Under the pieces are notes generated by a model. The model was not told the DNA's origin. It worked only from the letters and a program-made list of their open reading frames with translations, and searched no databases. Both the position numbers and the translations under genes were made by a program. 64,000 nucleotides of DNA from Limibacillus halophilus (GTDB taxonomy: Bacteria > Pseudomonadota > Alphaproteobacteria > Kiloniellales > CECT-8803), in contig NZ_JACHXA010000005.1 of the NCBI RefSeq assembly GCF_014191775.1, positions 124,001-188,000 of the forward strand. The letters run 5' to 3'. Below are positions 6,888-14,731 of the stretch, in pieces (positions within the stretch are counted from its first letter, which is position 1; each line of letters begins with the position of its first letter).

Positions 6888-7354
6888 TCGGTCGAAATCT
6901 CCGCATCGCCTTTCAGGGCTGCATCCATCGTATGCCAAGCAAGCGTCGCGCACTTGACCCGCACCGGGAATGTCCGAACACCCGACAACACCTGCAGGCG
7001 CTCCACGGCATCGGCGTCTGTCGCCTCGGCTTCACTCAAATCGGCGTCGTCTTTGGTGCAGAGGTCGTGAAAACCATGGAACAGAGTTTCAGCCTCCTCA
7101 ACTGTCTTTCCTTTAAGAATTTCAGTCATCATTGAGGCAGATGCCATTGAAATTGCGCAACCTTTCCCAATAAAGGAAACATCTTCAATCAAGTTCTGGC
7201 CGTTCGTCAGCAGATAAACACTCAGGGTGTCGCCGCACATGGGGTTGTTGCCTTGCGCGTGGTGATTGGCATCCCCGATTCGGCGTAAATTACGAGGGTT
7301 CTTCCCGTGGTCGAGGATAACTTCCTGATAGAGTTCTCGCAGTTCGTCTAACAT
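6884..7354 (-). CDS. sufU: SufU/IscU-type Fe-S scaffold or sulfur-transfer protein
   Basis: IscU-fold protein that accepts sulfur from SufS. The 156-residue protein has C40-G-D42, C66 and C135, the three-cysteine layout with the extra spacer between Cys66 and Cys135 that marks SufU rather than IscU. In Gram-positives SufU is a Zn-dependent sulfurtransferase partner of SufS; in alphaproteobacterial suf operons it occupies the place of SufE. Its ATG overlaps the sufS stop by one base (TAATG), and its stop overlaps the next ATG, so translation is probably coupled. No sufE is present in the operon, which supports a sulfur-relay role. Confidence 0.88.
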   Translation of the reverse strand: MLDELRELYQEVILDHGKNPRNLRRIGDANHHAQGNNPMCGDTLSVYLLTNGQNLIEDVSFIGKGCAISMASASMMTEILKGKTVEEAETLFHGFHDLCTKDDADLSEAEATDADAVERLQVLSGVRTFPVRVKCATLAWHTMDAALKGDAEISTE

Positions 7355-8631
7355 TATCCAAAGAAATCCCTGACAGTTTGTAAGGCCTCAGCCAGGACAT
7401 CTACCTCGGCCGGCGTATTATACAAGCCGAAGGAAACGCGGGCCGTAGCAGATAGGCCAAAGCGATCCATGACCGGCTGTGCGCAGTGGTGTCCAGCGCG
7501 AAGGGCCACGCCGCTGCGATCTACAATCGTGCCGATGTCGTGCGCGTGCGCGCCCTCCAGCACGAAAGAAATGATGCCCGCCTTCTCCTTCGCCTTACCA
7601 ATGATCTGCAACCCTTCTATCGCTTCCAGCTTGCGCGTTGCGTAGGCCAGCAAGCCTTCCTCGTGTGCGGCAATGGCATTCATCCCGATGCTGTTCAGGT
7701 AATCGACCGCCGCGCCGAAGCCGACCGCCTCGATGATTGCGGGCGTGCCTGCCTCAAAGCGGTGAGGGGCGGCCTTGAACGTGGATTTCTCCAAGGTCAC
7801 CGTTGCGATCATGTCGCCGCCACCCTGATAAGGCGGAAGGCGGTTGAGCAGGTCTTTCTTGCCATAGAGCGCACCGATGCCGGTGGGCCCGTACATCTTG
7901 TGGCTGGAGAAAGCGTAGTAATCAGCATCCAGCTCCCGGACGTCGACCCGCATGTGCGGCAGGGCCTGGCACCCGTCAACCATCACCTGTGCGCCTGCGG
8001 CGTGCGCTTCCTGGATGATTTGCTTGAGCGGCGTGATGCTGCCGAGTGCGTTGGAAATATGAGTGACGGCTACTAGCTTCGTGCGAGGGGACAAAAGCCC
8101 GCGATAGGCGTCCATGTCGAAGTTGCCATCGTCGTCGATGGGCACGGCCTTGAGAACGATACCGCTGCGGTCCCTTAAGAACTGCCAGGGCACGATGTTG
8201 GAATGATGCTCCATCTCGGAGATGATGATTTCGTCGCCAGGCTGGACTTGGCTTGCAAAGCAAGCGGCCAGCATGTTGATGGCCTCCGTGGCGCCGCGTG
8301 TGAAGATGATCTCGTCGGGCGAGCCGGCATTGACGAAAGCCGCAACCCTCTCACGGGCCCCTTCGAAAAGGTCTGTGGCTTCCTGGCTCAGACGGTGAAC
8401 GCCCCGATGCACGTTGGAATAACTCTCCTCCATGACCCTGGTCATGGCATCAATGACCTGTCGTGGCTTCTGGGCGCTGGCTCCATTGTCCAGGTAAACC
8501 AACGGTCGGCCATAGACCTCTCGCTTCAGGATCGGGAAATCTTCACGCACGCGTTCGACATCAAAGGCTGCGATGGAGTTGTCGCCAGGTCTTGAGTCGT
8601 TCGGCAATGTCGGCGTTTTCAACAGGCTCAT
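7354..8631 (-). CDS. sufS: Cysteine desulfurase SufS
   Basis: PLP enzyme that takes sulfur from cysteine for Fe-S assembly. The 425-residue protein has the PLP lysine K245 (SSHKMYGP) and the active-site cysteine C383 in RAGHHCAQP, the short group II loop of SufS/CsdA rather than the longer IscS loop. The ATG at 8631 is chosen because AGGAGA precedes it and it overlaps the sufD stop as ATGA. An upstream in-frame extension inside sufD is not credible. It sits between sufD and the sufU-like gene. Confidence 0.95.
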   Translation of the reverse strand: MSLLKTPTLPNDSRPGDNSIAAFDVERVREDFPILKREVYGRPLVYLDNGASAQKPRQVIDAMTRVMEESYSNVHRGVHRLSQEATDLFEGARERVAAFVNAGSPDEIIFTRGATEAINMLAACFASQVQPGDEIIISEMEHHSNIVPWQFLRDRSGIVLKAVPIDDDGNFDMDAYRGLLSPRTKLVAVTHISNALGSITPLKQIIQEAHAAGAQVMVDGCQALPHMRVDVRELDADYYAFSSHKMYGPTGIGALYGKKDLLNRLPPYQGGGDMIATVTLEKSTFKAAPHRFEAGTPAIIEAVGFGAAVDYLNSIGMNAIAAHEEGLLAYATRKLEAIEGLQIIGKAKEKAGIISFVLEGAHAHDIGTIVDRSGVALRAGHHCAQPVMDRFGLSATARVSFGLYNTPAEVDVLAEALQTVRDFFG

Positions 8632-9965
8632 AGGTCTTCTCCTGTCATTGCCGCCAACTTGGCACCCAAACGGTCCGTCAGGCCGGCGCGCAGCGCAATG
8701 TCGCTGCAAAGCTCAACGGTATCGCGCAGAAATGCTTCAATCAGGAGCTTACGGGCCTGGTGGGGCGGAATTCCGCGACTGCGCAAGTAAAAGAGGGCGT
8801 CGGCATCCAGTTCTCCTACCGTTGCGCCATGAGAACACACGACATCATCGGCATAAATTTCCAACTCAGGCTTTGCATTGACCTCGGCCCCGCGTGACAG
8901 CAACAGCGCCCGATGAGATTGGTTGCCTTCTATTTTCTGGGCGTGCTTCTCAACTTTGATAAGCCCCTGGAAAACGCCGCGAGATTGCTGATCCAAGGCC
9001 CCCTTGATGACCTCGTCGCAGGAGGTGTGGGGCGCTAGATGATCGATTACGCTGGTAATGTCGCTGTGCTGGCGACCAGTTAGCAGATAGACGCCGTTCA
9101 GCTTGCAGGAAGAGCCTCCGCCCGCGAGCCGGATTCTGAAGTCCTCTCTCGCCACGGCAGCACCCAGAGCCAGCAGAAATCCCTCGTAACTCGCATCACG
9201 CTCGAGGCTTGCCTGGCTGTTCATAAAATAGTGGCTGCTGTGTGAAAGTTCTTGTAACCGCAAGTGCTTAAGAGCGCTTCCTGATGCTAAGCTAAACTCC
9301 GCGACGCCGTTTGAAAACGATGTGCCGCCCCCGAGATTTTGATGATGCTCAATCACGGTTGCCCGGCTGTTTGCCTCCAGCACCACCAACAAGCGTGGCT
9401 GGCTGGCCCGAACTTCGTTGGCCGCGGCGCTATAAAGGAAGATCAGTTCTACAGGTCGATCGAGTTCAAGACCTGAAGCGATCCTCAACACGGCGCCATC
9501 GGACAGAAAGGCGTTATTGAGGTCCAGCAGCGGCGCTTCCCGTTCTTCCGTTGCAATCTGCCCCAGTGAGCTTTGCAGCCATGCGGGTCGTTCGCCTTGG
9601 CTGATGATGCTCAAACCGTTGAGTGTCACCCCGTCGGGTATCCCGTCCAAACGGCTGGTTTGTTCTTGCAAGCGGCCATCGACGAAGACCAGCCTATAGC
9701 CGTGGGCATCATCGGCGAGGAGACTGGGAAGACGGTCGGGCAGGGCAAGCTCGGCCGAGCCGCCCGCATAATCCAGCTTGGCGAGTGCATTCAGGCTGGT
9801 GTACTTCCAGCTTTCCAGTTGCCGCGATGGCATACCCTTCTGGCGGAAGCGTTCAAGCGCTTGGTGCCGTGATTCGGCAAGCCAATCCTGGGCTGGAAGC
9901 GCGGCCGCTTCGGCACCAGCCCCGGATAGGGCGCCCATCAGTTTTTCTTCCACACTCGTCTGCAT
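8628..9965 (-). CDS. sufD: SufD, component of the SufBCD Fe-S scaffold complex
   Basis: Cytosolic beta-helix protein that pairs with SufB and binds SufC in the SufBC2D complex. The 445-residue product shows the C-terminal SufBD pattern (KLEIYADDVVCSHGATVG followed by FYLRSRGI), including the conserved His of SufD. The N-terminal region (SRQLESWKYT) is also typical. The ATG at 9965 is preferred over an in-frame TTG at 9998, although both ribosome-binding sites are weak. Its stop overlaps sufS. Confidence 0.94.
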   Translation of the reverse strand: MQTSVEEKLMGALSGAGAEAAALPAQDWLAESRHQALERFRQKGMPSRQLESWKYTSLNALAKLDYAGGSAELALPDRLPSLLADDAHGYRLVFVDGRLQEQTSRLDGIPDGVTLNGLSIISQGERPAWLQSSLGQIATEEREAPLLDLNNAFLSDGAVLRIASGLELDRPVELIFLYSAAANEVRASQPRLLVVLEANSRATVIEHHQNLGGGTSFSNGVAEFSLASGSALKHLRLQELSHSSHYFMNSQASLERDASYEGFLLALGAAVAREDFRIRLAGGGSSCKLNGVYLLTGRQHSDITSVIDHLAPHTSCDEVIKGALDQQSRGVFQGLIKVEKHAQKIEGNQSHRALLLSRGAEVNAKPELEIYADDVVCSHGATVGELDADALFYLRSRGIPPHQARKLLIEAFLRDTVELCSDIALRAGLTDRLGAKLAAMTGEDL

Positions 9966-10001
9966 AATCTTTTTTTCTTTCAAACCTCTATCGATCAACT
10001 T

Positions 10002-10751
10002 TCAAGCAGCGCTCTGCTTAAACTCCGCGTAACCGCTGGCCTCCAGCTCCTTGGCCAGTTCTTTGTCGCCGGAGCGAACGATGCGGCCTTGGGCCAGCAC
10101 ATGTACACGGTCCGGCACGATGTAATCCAGCAACCGCTGATAGTGAGTGATGATCAGGAACGAACGCTCCGGGCTACGCAGAGCGTTGACGCCCTCTGCG
10201 ACGGTTTTCAATGCGTCGATATCCAGCCCGCTGTCGGTTTCATCGAGAATGGCAAGGTTGGGTTCGAGCATCGCCATCTGCAGAACCTCGTTCCGCTTCT
10301 TCTCGCCGCCGGAAAACCCAGAGTTGACGGCACGCTTGAGCATGTCGTCTGACATATGAAGCTCCTTGCACTTGGCGCGCAGAATCTTGAGAAACTGCAT
10401 GGCGTCCATTTCGCCGTCACCACGCGCACGGCGCACCGCATTGACGGCTTCCTTAAGGAACGTCGAATTGAGCACTCCGGGAATTTCGACCGGGTATTGG
10501 AAAGCCAGGAAAACACCGGCGGCGGCGCGCTCCTCGGGCTCCATTTTCAGAAGGTTGGCACCGTTGAACAGAACCTCTCCTTCGGTTACCTCATAGCCTT
10601 CACGTCCTGTCAGAATGTATGACAGCGTGGACTTGCCTGAGCCATTCGGCCCCATGATCGCATTGACCTCACCGGCCGCGATCGTCAAGTCTATGCCTTT
10701 CAGGATTTCTTTCCCGTCAACGCTGGCATGAAGATTCTTTATTTCAAGCAT
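10002..10751 (-). CDS. sufC: SufC, ATPase of the SufBCD complex
   Basis: Soluble ABC-type ATPase that powers rearrangement of the SufBD scaffold. The 249-residue protein has Walker A GPNGSGKS (about 34-41), signature FSGGEKKRNE, Walker B LAILDETDSGLD and the H-loop ITHYQRLL. The EKKRNE signature extension and SDSGLD-like D-loop are characteristic of SufC and distinguish it from transport ATPases. It is 26 bp downstream of sufB and ends just before sufD. Confidence 0.96.
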   Translation of the reverse strand: MLEIKNLHASVDGKEILKGIDLTIAAGEVNAIMGPNGSGKSTLSYILTGREGYEVTEGEVLFNGANLLKMEPEERAAAGVFLAFQYPVEIPGVLNSTFLKEAVNAVRRARGDGEMDAMQFLKILRAKCKELHMSDDMLKRAVNSGFSGGEKKRNEVLQMAMLEPNLAILDETDSGLDIDALKTVAEGVNALRSPERSFLIITHYQRLLDYIVPDRVHVLAQGRIVRSGDKELAKELEASGYAEFKQSAA

Positions 10752-10777
10752 TTGATAGATTTCCCTAACCTAACTTA

Positions 10778-12235
<1,458 letters not shown>

Positions 12236-12252: not shown

Positions 12253-12738
12253 TCAATCCGCGCGACCAGAGCTCTTGCCTGCCGAACTGGTTAAGGGGGC
12301 CGATACGGGTGAAACCGCCGGAAAATCAAAAAAAGATGCCGTCATCTCTTGCAGCGTCACCTCGTCCAACGCCGACTGTATGGCGTGATTGACCCTGTCC
12401 CACGTACCCCGCATCGGGCAGAGCGATTCAACGCCGCAGGAATCCGCCGACCCATCTACGCAAGCCGTCAGGGCAATTGGCCCTTCAATGGCCTCGATGA
12501 TGGCTGCAACGGAGATCTCCACGGCTGGCCGGGTCAAGGCGTAGCCGCCGCTGGCGCCGCGGTGAGACGTAATCAACCCACCCTTTGCCAGCAATGTCAG
12601 AACCTTTGAAACCGTCGGTAATGGAACGGCTGTATCCCTCGACAACTGTTGTGCAGAGAGTGTCGTCTGATCACCGCGCGTGGCCAGTTGTGTCATGACC
12701 ACGACGGCGTAGTCTGTCAGGCGATTCAGGCGGAACAT
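12253..12738 (-). CDS. Rrf2-family SUF operon regulator (IscR/SufR-like)
   Basis: Winged-helix transcription factor of the Rrf2 family, probably controlling the suf operon by sensing Fe-S status. The 161-residue protein has the Rrf2 helix-turn-helix (LSAQQLSRDTAVPLPTVSKVL) and the cluster-ligand region with C93, C101 and C107, spaced C-x7-C-x5-C, close to but longer than the C-x5-C-x5-C of E. coli IscR. This matches the SUF-system regulator subgroup of Rrf2 proteins. The ATG at 12738 follows GAGGA; an in-frame TTG at 12759 is less likely. As the first gene of the operon it is probably autoregulated. Confidence 0.88.
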   Translation of the reverse strand: MFRLNRLTDYAVVVMTQLATRGDQTTLSAQQLSRDTAVPLPTVSKVLTLLAKGGLITSHRGASGGYALTRPAVEISVAAIIEAIEGPIALTACVDGSADSCGVESLCPMRGTWDRVNHAIQSALDEVTLQEMTASFFDFPAVSPVSAPLTSSAGKSSGRAD

Positions 12739-13003
12739 CTTGTCCTCAATTCCTACCAATACGGTCGTGTATTACTCACTTATCGATTTCTTATCATAAA
12801 TCAAGAGTAAATTGGTATGAATTCAATGGAATCTTTCTTTCCTTTTAGGACTCTAGATGCATGCCGATGAGGTAACTCGCGTATTCGTGTCCAAAGGTTA
12901 CAGCCCATTCTATTGCACAAGTGACCCAGGGTAGAGACAGTGGCGGCGCGACGATTTGTCATAGCATTCCAAAGCAGAAAATACAGAACTGGAGCAATAC
13001 ACA

Positions 13004-13384
13004 ATGTCTGGACAAGGATTGGCACTTGCCGCCGTCATGCTTGTGGGAACGGCTTTCCTGCCAATTTCTGCCGGCGCGGCTGGGGACGCGGCGACGGGTG
13101 AGAAGCTCTTCAAGCGTAATTGTGCCGCTTGCCATACAACGGACGCAGGCAAGCACAGAGTGGGGCCAAGCCTGGCTGGGGTCGCTGGCCGCACTGCCGG
13201 TACTGCGGATGGATACCGGTATTCCTCTGCGATGGCCGGATATGGTGTGGTTTGGGATGCTGCAACGCTCGATACCTACCTGGCGGATCCACGCGGCACC
13301 GTGCCTGGAACCAAGATGACTTTTCGCGGTCTGAAGGAGCGACAGGACCGTGAAAATGTCATCACGTATTTGGAAACCCAGTAA
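13004..13384 (+). CDS. Class I c-type cytochrome (cytochrome c2/c552-like), periplasmic
   Basis: Soluble electron carrier. The 126-residue precursor has a signal peptide (about 1-25), heme-binding C40-A-A-C43-H44 and the distal ligand M105 (PGTKMTF). Length and the GPSLAGVAGR and YRYSSAM segments match mitochondrial-type cytochrome c2. It is followed 198 bp downstream by the P460-type gene on the same strand. An electron-transfer link between the two is possible but not shown. The ribosome-binding site is weak (GGAGCAATACACA). Confidence 0.9.
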   Translation: MSGQGLALAAVMLVGTAFLPISAGAAGDAATGEKLFKRNCAACHTTDAGKHRVGPSLAGVAGRTAGTADGYRYSSAMAGYGVVWDAATLDTYLADPRGTVPGTKMTFRGLKERQDRENVITYLETQ

Positions 13385-13582: not shown

Positions 13583-14731
13583 ATGAGAAGCACTAAAGCG
13601 AGACTTTTGAACTCGACGGTCATGCCTTTGGCCTTAGCGGTTGGTGTGGCCGCGGGTGTCGGCGTAATCACAGTCGGATCGGTCATCGGTAGTACGGCAT
13701 CCCAGGCGGCGACAGCTACGAAAGTGCCTGTAGCAAAGGGGAGTTTGCCTCAAGCGCAACCAAAACCGCGGGCGCTTCAGCAGGCAGCCGGCTGCAATCC
13801 TTGCAATCCCTGTGCCGCTAAGACCTGTAATCCTTGCAGCCCTTGCGCGGCCGAGGGATGCAATCCTTGCAACCCCTGTGCCGCAGCGGCCTGCAATCCT
13901 TGCAATCCCTGTGGTGGTTGTAATCCCTGCGCCGCTGCCGGCGCGAAGAGTGCTTGCTTCGTGCCGCGACTGCAAAAGGCATCAGCTTGCAACCCCTGCA
14001 ACCCCTGTGCGGCCAAGGCCTGCAACCCCTGCAATCCTTGCGCGGCCAAGGCCTGCAATCCTTGCAGCCCCTGCGCTGCAGAAGGTTGTAACCCCTGTAA
14101 TCCTTGTGCGGCCAAGGCCTGCAACCCCTGTAATCCCTGTGCGGCCAAGGCCTGCAATCCCTGCAACCCCTGTGCCGCAGCGGCCTGCAATCCTTGCAAC
14201 CCCTGTGGTGGTTGCAATCCCTGTGCAGGCGGTGGCGTAGAGATCACGGATGCTGAAGCTGCGGCGGTCTATGGCTGCGCGATGGAAGAACTGCAAAAAG
14301 CCTATGGCAAGTCGGGCTCCGACATCGCGGCGTCCTATCAGTCATGGCGCCTTTACAGTAAGGTTCCCTACGTCTCCTTCACACACGGTGAACGCTACGT
14401 GACAAACTACGCGAACGCCGCGGCAAAAGCCTACGGTGCCTACGAAAGCTCCGGCGTGATGCCGGAGGGTGCAACGCTTGCTAAAGACAGCTTCTCGGTA
14501 ACAGCTGCGGGGCAGGTTAGTATCGGCCCGCTGTTTATCATGGAGAAGATGGGCGCCGGCTTCGCTGCCGAGACGAACGACTGGCGGTATTCCATGATCA
14601 TGCCGAATGGTGCGGTCTTTGGCGTCACCGGCGGCAAAGGGTCGGATAATGTGCAATTCTGCGCAGATTGCCACATGGCAACCGACACCGACTCAATGTT
14701 CTTCTTGCCCGAAGAATACCGGGTGAAATAG
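13583..14731 (+). CDS. Cytochrome P460-type heme protein with a large Cys-Asn-Pro-Cys repeat domain
   Basis: The 382-residue precursor has three parts. Residues 1-43 are a signal peptide or membrane anchor ending at SQA. Residues 71-214 are a repeat array of 11-residue units of the form [11 protein letters not shown], in two blocks separated by a short linker (about 120-135) and both ending in [14 protein letters not shown] count 38 cysteines before the C-terminal domain. Residues 215-382 resemble the cytochrome P460 family, with [19 protein letters not shown] and a C-terminal heme c motif C360-A-D-C363-H364 followed by [11 protein letters not shown]460 enzymes oxidise hydroxylamine or related substrates in the periplasm. 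The catalytic crosslinking Lys cannot be assigned by eye. The role of the CNPC array (metal binding, disulfide network or wall anchoring) is unknown. A GGGGAG ribosome-binding site precedes the ATG. Confidence 0.78.
13793..14224 (+). repeat. In-frame 33-bp tandem repeats encoding [11 protein letters not shown] units
   Basis: The 432-bp tract inside the P460-type gene consists of 33-bp units encoding CNPC(N/S)PCAA(K/A/E)(A/G). There are four units in the first block (about 13793-13936) and seven in the second (about 13988-14224), each block closing with a GGCNPC variant. The order AAEG then AAAA or AAKA recurs in both blocks, so a segment duplication is likely. Synonymous third-base variation between units (tgc/tgt, aat/aac, cct/ccc) shows that the array is not freshly expanded. 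Confidence 0.9.

Follow-up and report, generated by a model that had tools for sequence, protein, structure and literature searches.

The window, namely the whole 64,000-nucleotide stretch of Limibacillus halophilus DNA analysed herein, carries at positions 13583..14731 an open reading frame with an ATG start, encoding a protein of 382 residues in which a cysteine array precedes a cytochrome P460 domain, and for which 80 homologous fusions were identified. All the features of the window given with coordinates below, for this gene and its two immediate neighbours, lie on the plus strand. The combination of a two-block array with P460 at 13583-14731, first noticed in a sequence-only reading of this DNA, was confirmed. 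From the N-terminus, the protein consists of a hydrophobic leader similar to an export signal (residues 1-43; 13583..13711), array block 1 of CNPC units (residues 71-116; 13793..13930), a central linker with the sequence CFVPRL (residues 118-135; 13934..13987), array block 2 of CNPC units (residues 136-215; 13988..14227), and the P460 domain (14240..14728). The leader was judged by crude hydropathy, from which the protein is predicted to be exported. The immediate downstream neighbour encodes a Sel1-repeat protein (PF08238; 14742..15263), and about 200 bp upstream ends the gene for a class I cytochrome c (PF00034, E 1.7e-13; 13004..13384), a possible redox partner. Farther upstream are located the genes that we label as an Rrf2-like regulator (12253-12759) and suf-like (7354-12235); a relative of the Rrf2-like regulator was also detected in 6 other array-P460 loci.

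Residues 71-215 include 38 cysteines among 145 residues, one of which sits in the linker, and the previous count of 37 cysteines in 144 array residues is thus correct. The unit CNPC[NS]PC appears 11 times, starting at residues 71, 82, 93 and 104 in the first block and at residues 136, 147, 158, 169, 180, 191 and 202 in the second. Block 2 repeats the succession of unit variants seen in the first block, with AAKA units added, so that the description of the array as two duplicated blocks is a fair one. Tandem Repeats Finder (TRF) analysis gave a period of 33 with 12.7 copies and 68% matches. The codon differences among the array units, counted for 55 unit pairs over seven unit codons, are 162 synonymous and 18 non-synonymous; as the synonymous differences are in such excess, it is the protein sequence of the array that is kept, and by this measure the window array is judged to be more than the product of chance or recent slippage. 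The view that the array arose by neutral expansion of low-complexity sequence and has no function agrees with the wide variation in repeat number described below, but it conflicts with the synonymous excess between units, with the presence of at least 15 array cysteines in each of the 81 family members and with the strict co-occurrence of partner genes; it was rejected on the synonymous excess, and we give it hardly any credence.

No family of Pfam or NCBIfam covers the array, neither in the window protein nor in a stand-alone array protein of 94 residues (L002), and the literature search for CNPCNPC, NPCAAK and 'cytochrome P460' together with 'cysteine-rich' gave no paper, a weak negative as such motifs are seldom printed and subscription titles were mostly uncovered. 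As far as these databases and this literature extend, the array does not correspond to a common domain that has already been characterised.

The C-terminal domain was assigned by Pfam to PF16694 with an E-value of 1.6e-6 and a score of 28.9 bits against the cut-off of 27. The heme c attachment motif CADCH, as noticed before, is present in this domain at 14660..14674. After alignment of the domains from the 81 array-P460 proteins (alignment A1), a total of 19 columns were found to be invariant, three of them being the Cys and His positions of CxxCH; K82, occupied by Lys in all 81 sequences (14483..14485 in the window), is among the other 16. A PDB search with the single window sequence yielded four rows with E-values from 0.027 to 0.92, none of which was P460, and the profile of the 81 domains recovered P460 and cytochrome c'-beta entries weakly (E 0.0003 to 0.23). 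In these profile alignments of weak E-value, K82 falls on a Lys of 2je2 (Nitrosomonas europaea P460, E 0.23) and of 8gar (E 0.18), on a Met of 7s5o (E 0.0003), and on a Phe of 7ead (E 0.054). The residues described for the cross-link position, in the available part of a review (PMC11928373), are Lys70 in P460 and Met79 and Phe61 in cytochromes c'-beta. Judged from the alignments, the window Lys occupies the heme cross-link position, in which we refer to the position alone and not to the bond itself. Glu at A1 position 102 (14543..14545), found in 80 of the 81 sequences, is a candidate distal carboxylate placed by one alignment only: that with 7ead puts it on the distal Gly82, while in those with 2je2 and 7s5o it does not coincide with the distal residue, the distal assignments being taken from the same part of that review. 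In P460, a distal carboxylate is required for the oxidation of NH2OH.

The AF2 model of the P460 domain (m3ff57376ba36) was obtained with pLDDT of 94.6. Foldseek search with this model gave 8 matches at E <= 0.001, every one of which is P460 or cytochrome c'-beta, and in VIA-align the first 17 entries, with Z from 8.4 to 12.8 and rmsd of 2.9-3.9 over 122-128 residues, all belong to the same two groups, the next row having Z of 4.9. Profile, fold and key residue all agree with the P460 identity proposed for the C-terminal part by the sequence-only reading, and the window gene is best read as coding for an exported heme-c enzyme of P460 type that carries a cysteine-array tail.

Using the whole fusion as the query, we found 210 relatives in genome contigs and kept the best 80, a set that leans toward full fusions because of the query used. 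All of these 80 best-ranked relatives, as well as the window protein (81/81), carry array and P460 in one frame, and the question raised earlier, whether CNPC arrays exist in other P460 proteins, is hereby answered in the affirmative. Across the 81 members the array is 51-335 residues long (median 153), with 15-88 Cys (median 35) and 8-55 CxPC (median 18). A total of 61 members have the linker motif C-x-[VI]-P-[RGK]-[LMF], and 47 have a hydrophobic leader, defined as a run of 15 residues whose mean KD is >= 2.0 within the first 60 residues. The members come from Kiloniellaceae, Rhodospirillales, Sneathiella, Anderseniella, Pelagibius, Hyphomicrobiales and 'Alphaproteobacteria', with some recorded as 'Proteobacteria' only, and their names point to sources that are chiefly marine. 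Isolates named among these loci include Pelagibius litoralis DSM 21314, Sneathiella chungangensis KCTC 32476 and Aestuariispira insulae CECT 8488, and in the Aestuariispira locus (L024) DUF6969, a partner described below, adjoins the array gene. The subfamily also includes P460 domains that have no array, and some arrays are short, such as those with 6 Cys ahead of the P460 domain in G027 and with four Cys in L149. Of seven second P460 copies examined in array genomes, four lack an array, two contain two NPC apiece and the remaining one has a short array. In two cases (G097:C3:65448-66158 and G206:C10:22361-23065) the array motifs are located inside the P460 match, which is split at profile position 95-99. 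The array unit may also be a variant of 10 residues or CGAC rather than CNPC; CGAC or CGAK units replace CNPC in L122/L172 (G184), L133/L158 (G064) and L134/L263 (G007), indicating that Asn-Pro is not essential and that the close spacing of Cys is what is retained.

A relative of the window cytochrome c was detected by tblastn within 3 kb in 19 of the 81 array-P460 loci, and one of the Sel1-repeat protein in 9; the proposal that the upstream cytochrome c serves as electron acceptor is thus possible for the window but not general for the family. In the fetched flanks of the 81 loci, we found a protein of the DUF6969 family in 43, a protein similar to FGE/SUMF1 in 34, and a small stand-alone cysteine array, lacking CxxCH, in 32, with at least one of these three in 54 loci; these counts are lower bounds since many loci stop at contig edges. 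DUF6969 and the FGE-like protein are both present in 28 loci, and in 15 of the 28 their genes are on the same strand less than 200 bp apart, with a 4-bp overlap in four. The genome from which the window derives contains all four parts at three separate places, the array-P460 gene on contig C5, a stand-alone array of 94 residues on C9, and adjacent FGE-like and DUF6969 genes on C11. Less frequent neighbours include a small protein without family match that we read as cupredoxin-like (11 loci), another without family match read as SNase-like (11 loci), and a Sulf_transp (YeeE/YedE-like) protein (14 loci; for instance L072 2870-4036), the last of which may hint at sulfur chemistry.

Cysteine arrays were also found beside DUF6969 in fusion with SoxA/TsdA-type cytochrome c (PF21342) at four loci, three from other classes (L214, L218 and L221) and one from the same class (L227), and in L214 and L218 alike the cytochrome c heme domain is flanked by array at either end. 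Such freedom of position, N-terminal in the P460 family, flanking in these cytochromes c (L214, L218), and internal in the split P460 matches of G097 and G206, would be expected if the array were mainly structural, either a flexible or cross-linked envelope tether for display of the heme domain or a path for electrons between hemes. This reading is nevertheless improbable in our estimate, as it does not account for the stand-alone arrays, which have no heme motif to display in 32 of the 81 loci and which also lie beside DUF6969, as does the array of 77 residues in L216.

The association of arrays with DUF6969 was analysed using a sample of 289 alphaproteobacterial genomes together with 14 control genomes, in which DUF6969 was present in 62 of the former and in none of the latter. 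The motif CNPCNPC was detected in 19 of the 289 genomes, 17 of them with DUF6969, and NPCAAKNPC in 18, all with DUF6969 (18/18); either motif was found in 29 genomes, of which 27 contain DUF6969, compared with 62/289 overall (Fisher 1.2e-18, a value that overstates independence because the genomes are related). In one of the two exceptions, G158, the two CNPCNPC matches represent the same ORF of 61 residues at two places, which does not look like an exported array and is kept in the 29; the other, G124, is an assembly of about 410 contigs, in which the array contig of 4.2 kb carries an FGE-like match. P460 domains of the window subfamily are present in 38 of the 289 genomes, 27 with array, 9 without array and 2 not classifiable. 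DUF6969 was identified in 25 of the 27 genomes with array-bearing P460 and in none of the 9 with array-less P460 (Fisher 5.8e-7, again for genomes that are related), the two lacking it being G124 and G007, the latter assembled in about 810 contigs. This comparison excludes G034 (with DUF6969) and G226 (without), in which the P460 matches are broken, and includes G105 and G097 as array-bearing on the basis of motif positions beside the P460 matches. In terms of gene content, the link of DUF6969 is to the array and not to P460.

The same association is seen at the level of gene proximity. An array gene is present in 28 of 60 DUF6969 regions, 17 from 44 genomes of the class without CNPCNPC and 11 from 16 further regions of the phylum draw, as compared with none of 20 control regions, which were hand-picked elsewhere in DUF6969 genomes. 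The distance from DUF6969 to the nearest array ranges from 21 to 2537 bp with a median of 302. For this count we employed a rule of our own, [NSDG]PC >= 4, PC[AGS][AGPTS] >= 4 or CxxC >= 8, with Arg below 12%; 44 of the 45 motif-negative DUF6969 genomes were examined, G071, with a DUF6969 fragment at a contig edge, being left out. In total, 40 of the 62 DUF6969 genomes have some array, 27 by the two motifs, 11 by the looser rule and 2 by further inspection, and for the other 22 no array was detected with the two exact motifs genome-wide and the looser rule near DUF6969. Likewise, no array was found within 4-5 kb of DUF6969 on two Azospirillum plasmids and on pSymB of S. meliloti 1021 (L271, L272 and L273). 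DUF6969 is thus broader than the arrays, and it may act on other substrates or serve a further purpose. On both Azospirillum plasmids, DUF6969 adjoins the genes for Mla-type lipid transport. Although the relatedness of the genomes makes the Fisher values too small, many families are represented in the draw, and arrays are carried by two heme domains that are unrelated to each other. The array, either standing alone or attached to P460 or to another cytochrome c, looks like a component of a larger and apparently undescribed system together with DUF6969 and the FGE-like protein, and as a shared element of this system, which the sequence-only reading had overlooked, it is not primarily an accessory of P460.

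DUF6969 is identical with PF22308, to which one member was assigned with E of 3.6e-83. The alignment of 35 sequences (A4) indicates that H63, H81, H83, H92, H94, H126, E60 and E89 are invariant, within the pattern HxH...E-x-G-HxH, and this His-rich core looks like a metal-binding site. By the crude measure, a hydrophobic leader was found in none of 43 DUF6969 proteins. The AF2 model was obtained with pLDDT of 93.7, and no significant counterpart was found for it in either the PDB or the viral library, the best Foldseek E-values being 0.97 (PDB) and 0.084 (viral library) and the VIA-align Z at most 2.8, which is not in itself proof of a new fold; the sequence profile against PDB gave a single row with E of 0.74. 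The literature search for DUF6969 retrieved no paper, a weak negative with subscription titles mostly uncovered. We read DUF6969 as a metalloprotein of the cytoplasm and, most probably, an enzyme.

The second partner belongs to PF03781, with E of 1.8e-43 and 3.3e-46 for two members and 1.4e-42 for that of the window genome, and 24 of 34 members have a hydrophobic leader. At the threshold of E <= 1e-60, this protein is present in 20 of the 289 genomes, 18 of which contain DUF6969. FGE recognises CxPxR, and CxP is abundant in the array. Sequence matches of the partner in PDB include FGE, EgtB, OvsA, PvdO, PorK and ToxD, the best being ToxD, and in the alignment A2 the sequence C269-G-x-C272 is near-invariant. 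This CGxC presumably stands where the Cys pair of FGE would be, and the usual copper-cysteine spacing of FGE is, we assume, absent. FGE oxidises peptidyl-Cys with copper, according to the available parts of two reports (PMC4505483, PMC12123546). Besides the PF03781 domain that they share, the partner seems to differ from FGE in its Cys pattern and its closest match is ToxD, and FGE-type chemistry on the array is for this reason only a lead.

From the observed anatomy of the fusion, its P460 fold, the position of the Lys, the co-occurrence and the gene proximity, we infer that the array family depends on DUF6969, which would modify or load with metal the array cysteines before export, and that the array would then act as a metal or thiol reservoir next to heme. 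We assign this reading a probability of roughly 0.4. Weighing against it are the 22 DUF6969 genomes for which no array was detected by the searches above, the dispersal of the parts over three places in the window genome, the failure of the DUF6969 model to match any solved protein, the atypical Cys spacing that the FGE-like protein seems to have, and an MNIO relative in 3 of the DUF6969 regions. Since DUF6969 carries no leader and the array does, action before export is the simplest mechanism: DUF6969 would act on the cysteines in the cytoplasm, and the leader-bearing FGE-like protein may act on, or bind to, the same cysteines outside. The array in the periplasm would form a dense reservoir, either for soft metals such as copper or of thiols reactive with sulfur or NO, tethered close to a heme at which hydroxylamine or NO is handled. 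Alternatively, the array could be an unmodified thiol reservoir, similar to metallothionein or switching between disulfides, for which DUF6969 would be a chaperone, regulator or metal supplier making no covalent change. The density of CxxC, the range of 8-55 CxPC and the tolerance for the 10-residue variant and CGAC units all fit such a loose store, and the link to DUF6969 is then accounted for without new chemistry, but it is left unexplained why a leaderless DUF6969 so tightly tracks an exported array and for what reason it is accompanied by a member of the FGE family, in which Cys-oxidising proteins occur; we regard this alternative as only somewhat less probable than the preceding reading.

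Action of DUF6969 on the array before export, the reading that we prefer, has a stronger form, in which DUF6969 would found a new enzyme fold and introduce a post-translational modification or a metal centre on the Cys of exported tandem arrays, these serving both as free peptides and as prosthetic tails of heme-c enzymes (P460 and the cytochrome c of SoxA/TsdA type) and so making up a novel class of modified Cys peptides within redox enzymes; this form we put forward only tentatively. In either form, a Pfam family of unknown function, DUF6969, for which no solved-structure match was found, gains a definite candidate substrate, and a DUF6969-dependent change of the array cysteines is predicted in a testable manner. 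If true, there would be an MNIO-independent route to exported Cys-rich handlers of metal or sulfur in Pseudomonadota, and such Cys peptides would be seen to be incorporated into heme enzymes, including one from a family whose chemistry with hydroxylamine and NO is known.

The peptides of the bufferin and captophorin type are modified by MNIO enzymes (DUF692) inside the cell and exported afterwards, and we take an EGKCG-type core motif to be their hallmark. It could be proposed that the CNPC arrays are substrates of these known enzymes, since bufferins are Cys-rich copper peptides (in the parts of PMC13097082 and PMC12538549 at hand), the window genome has one MNIO, and an MNIO relative is present in 3 DUF6969 regions (L148, L219 and L227). 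This single MNIO match (PF05114) is, however, located in a separate cluster of bufferin type, apart from the CNPC arrays; tblastn with its sequence (E <= 1e-4), which a distant MNIO could escape, gave no MNIO match either in the window or in any of the 80 array loci, and EGKCG is absent from all of 113 array proteins (0/113). Membership of the arrays in the bufferin/MNIO group was rejected on these three grounds, and we consider it very improbable. The cluster itself (L230 4172-6859, on G000:C1) contains the MNIO gene, identified by family match, and other genes that we take to be those for a Cys peptide, a DUF2063-like and a DoxX-like protein.

Among the known systems, the cytochromes P460 (NeP460 and McP460, of the P460/cytochrome c'-beta superfamily) share with the window protein the fold, CxxCH and the position of the cross-link Lys, and possibly the distal carboxylate for which the Glu above is a candidate, and differ by lacking its 145-residue cysteine array; the main text of a 2025 review on P460, in the part available, includes neither the word 'fusion' nor 'repeat' (PMC11928373). 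Bacterial metallothioneins are high in Cys content and follow a soft-metal logic. The arrays are comparable to them in both respects, but are distinct in their leader, their regular tandem units, the fusion to heme domains and the lack of a Pfam match to the array. With bufferins and captophorins, as described in the parts of PMC13097082 and PMC12538549 at hand, the arrays would share the logic of a Cys-rich peptide served by a dedicated modifying enzyme, and they differ in having DUF6969 as the putative helper, in the frequent fusion to heme proteins and in carrying up to 55 CxPC. By this analogy, the system of array and DUF6969 is best read as following a bufferin-like logic with a different set of proteins.
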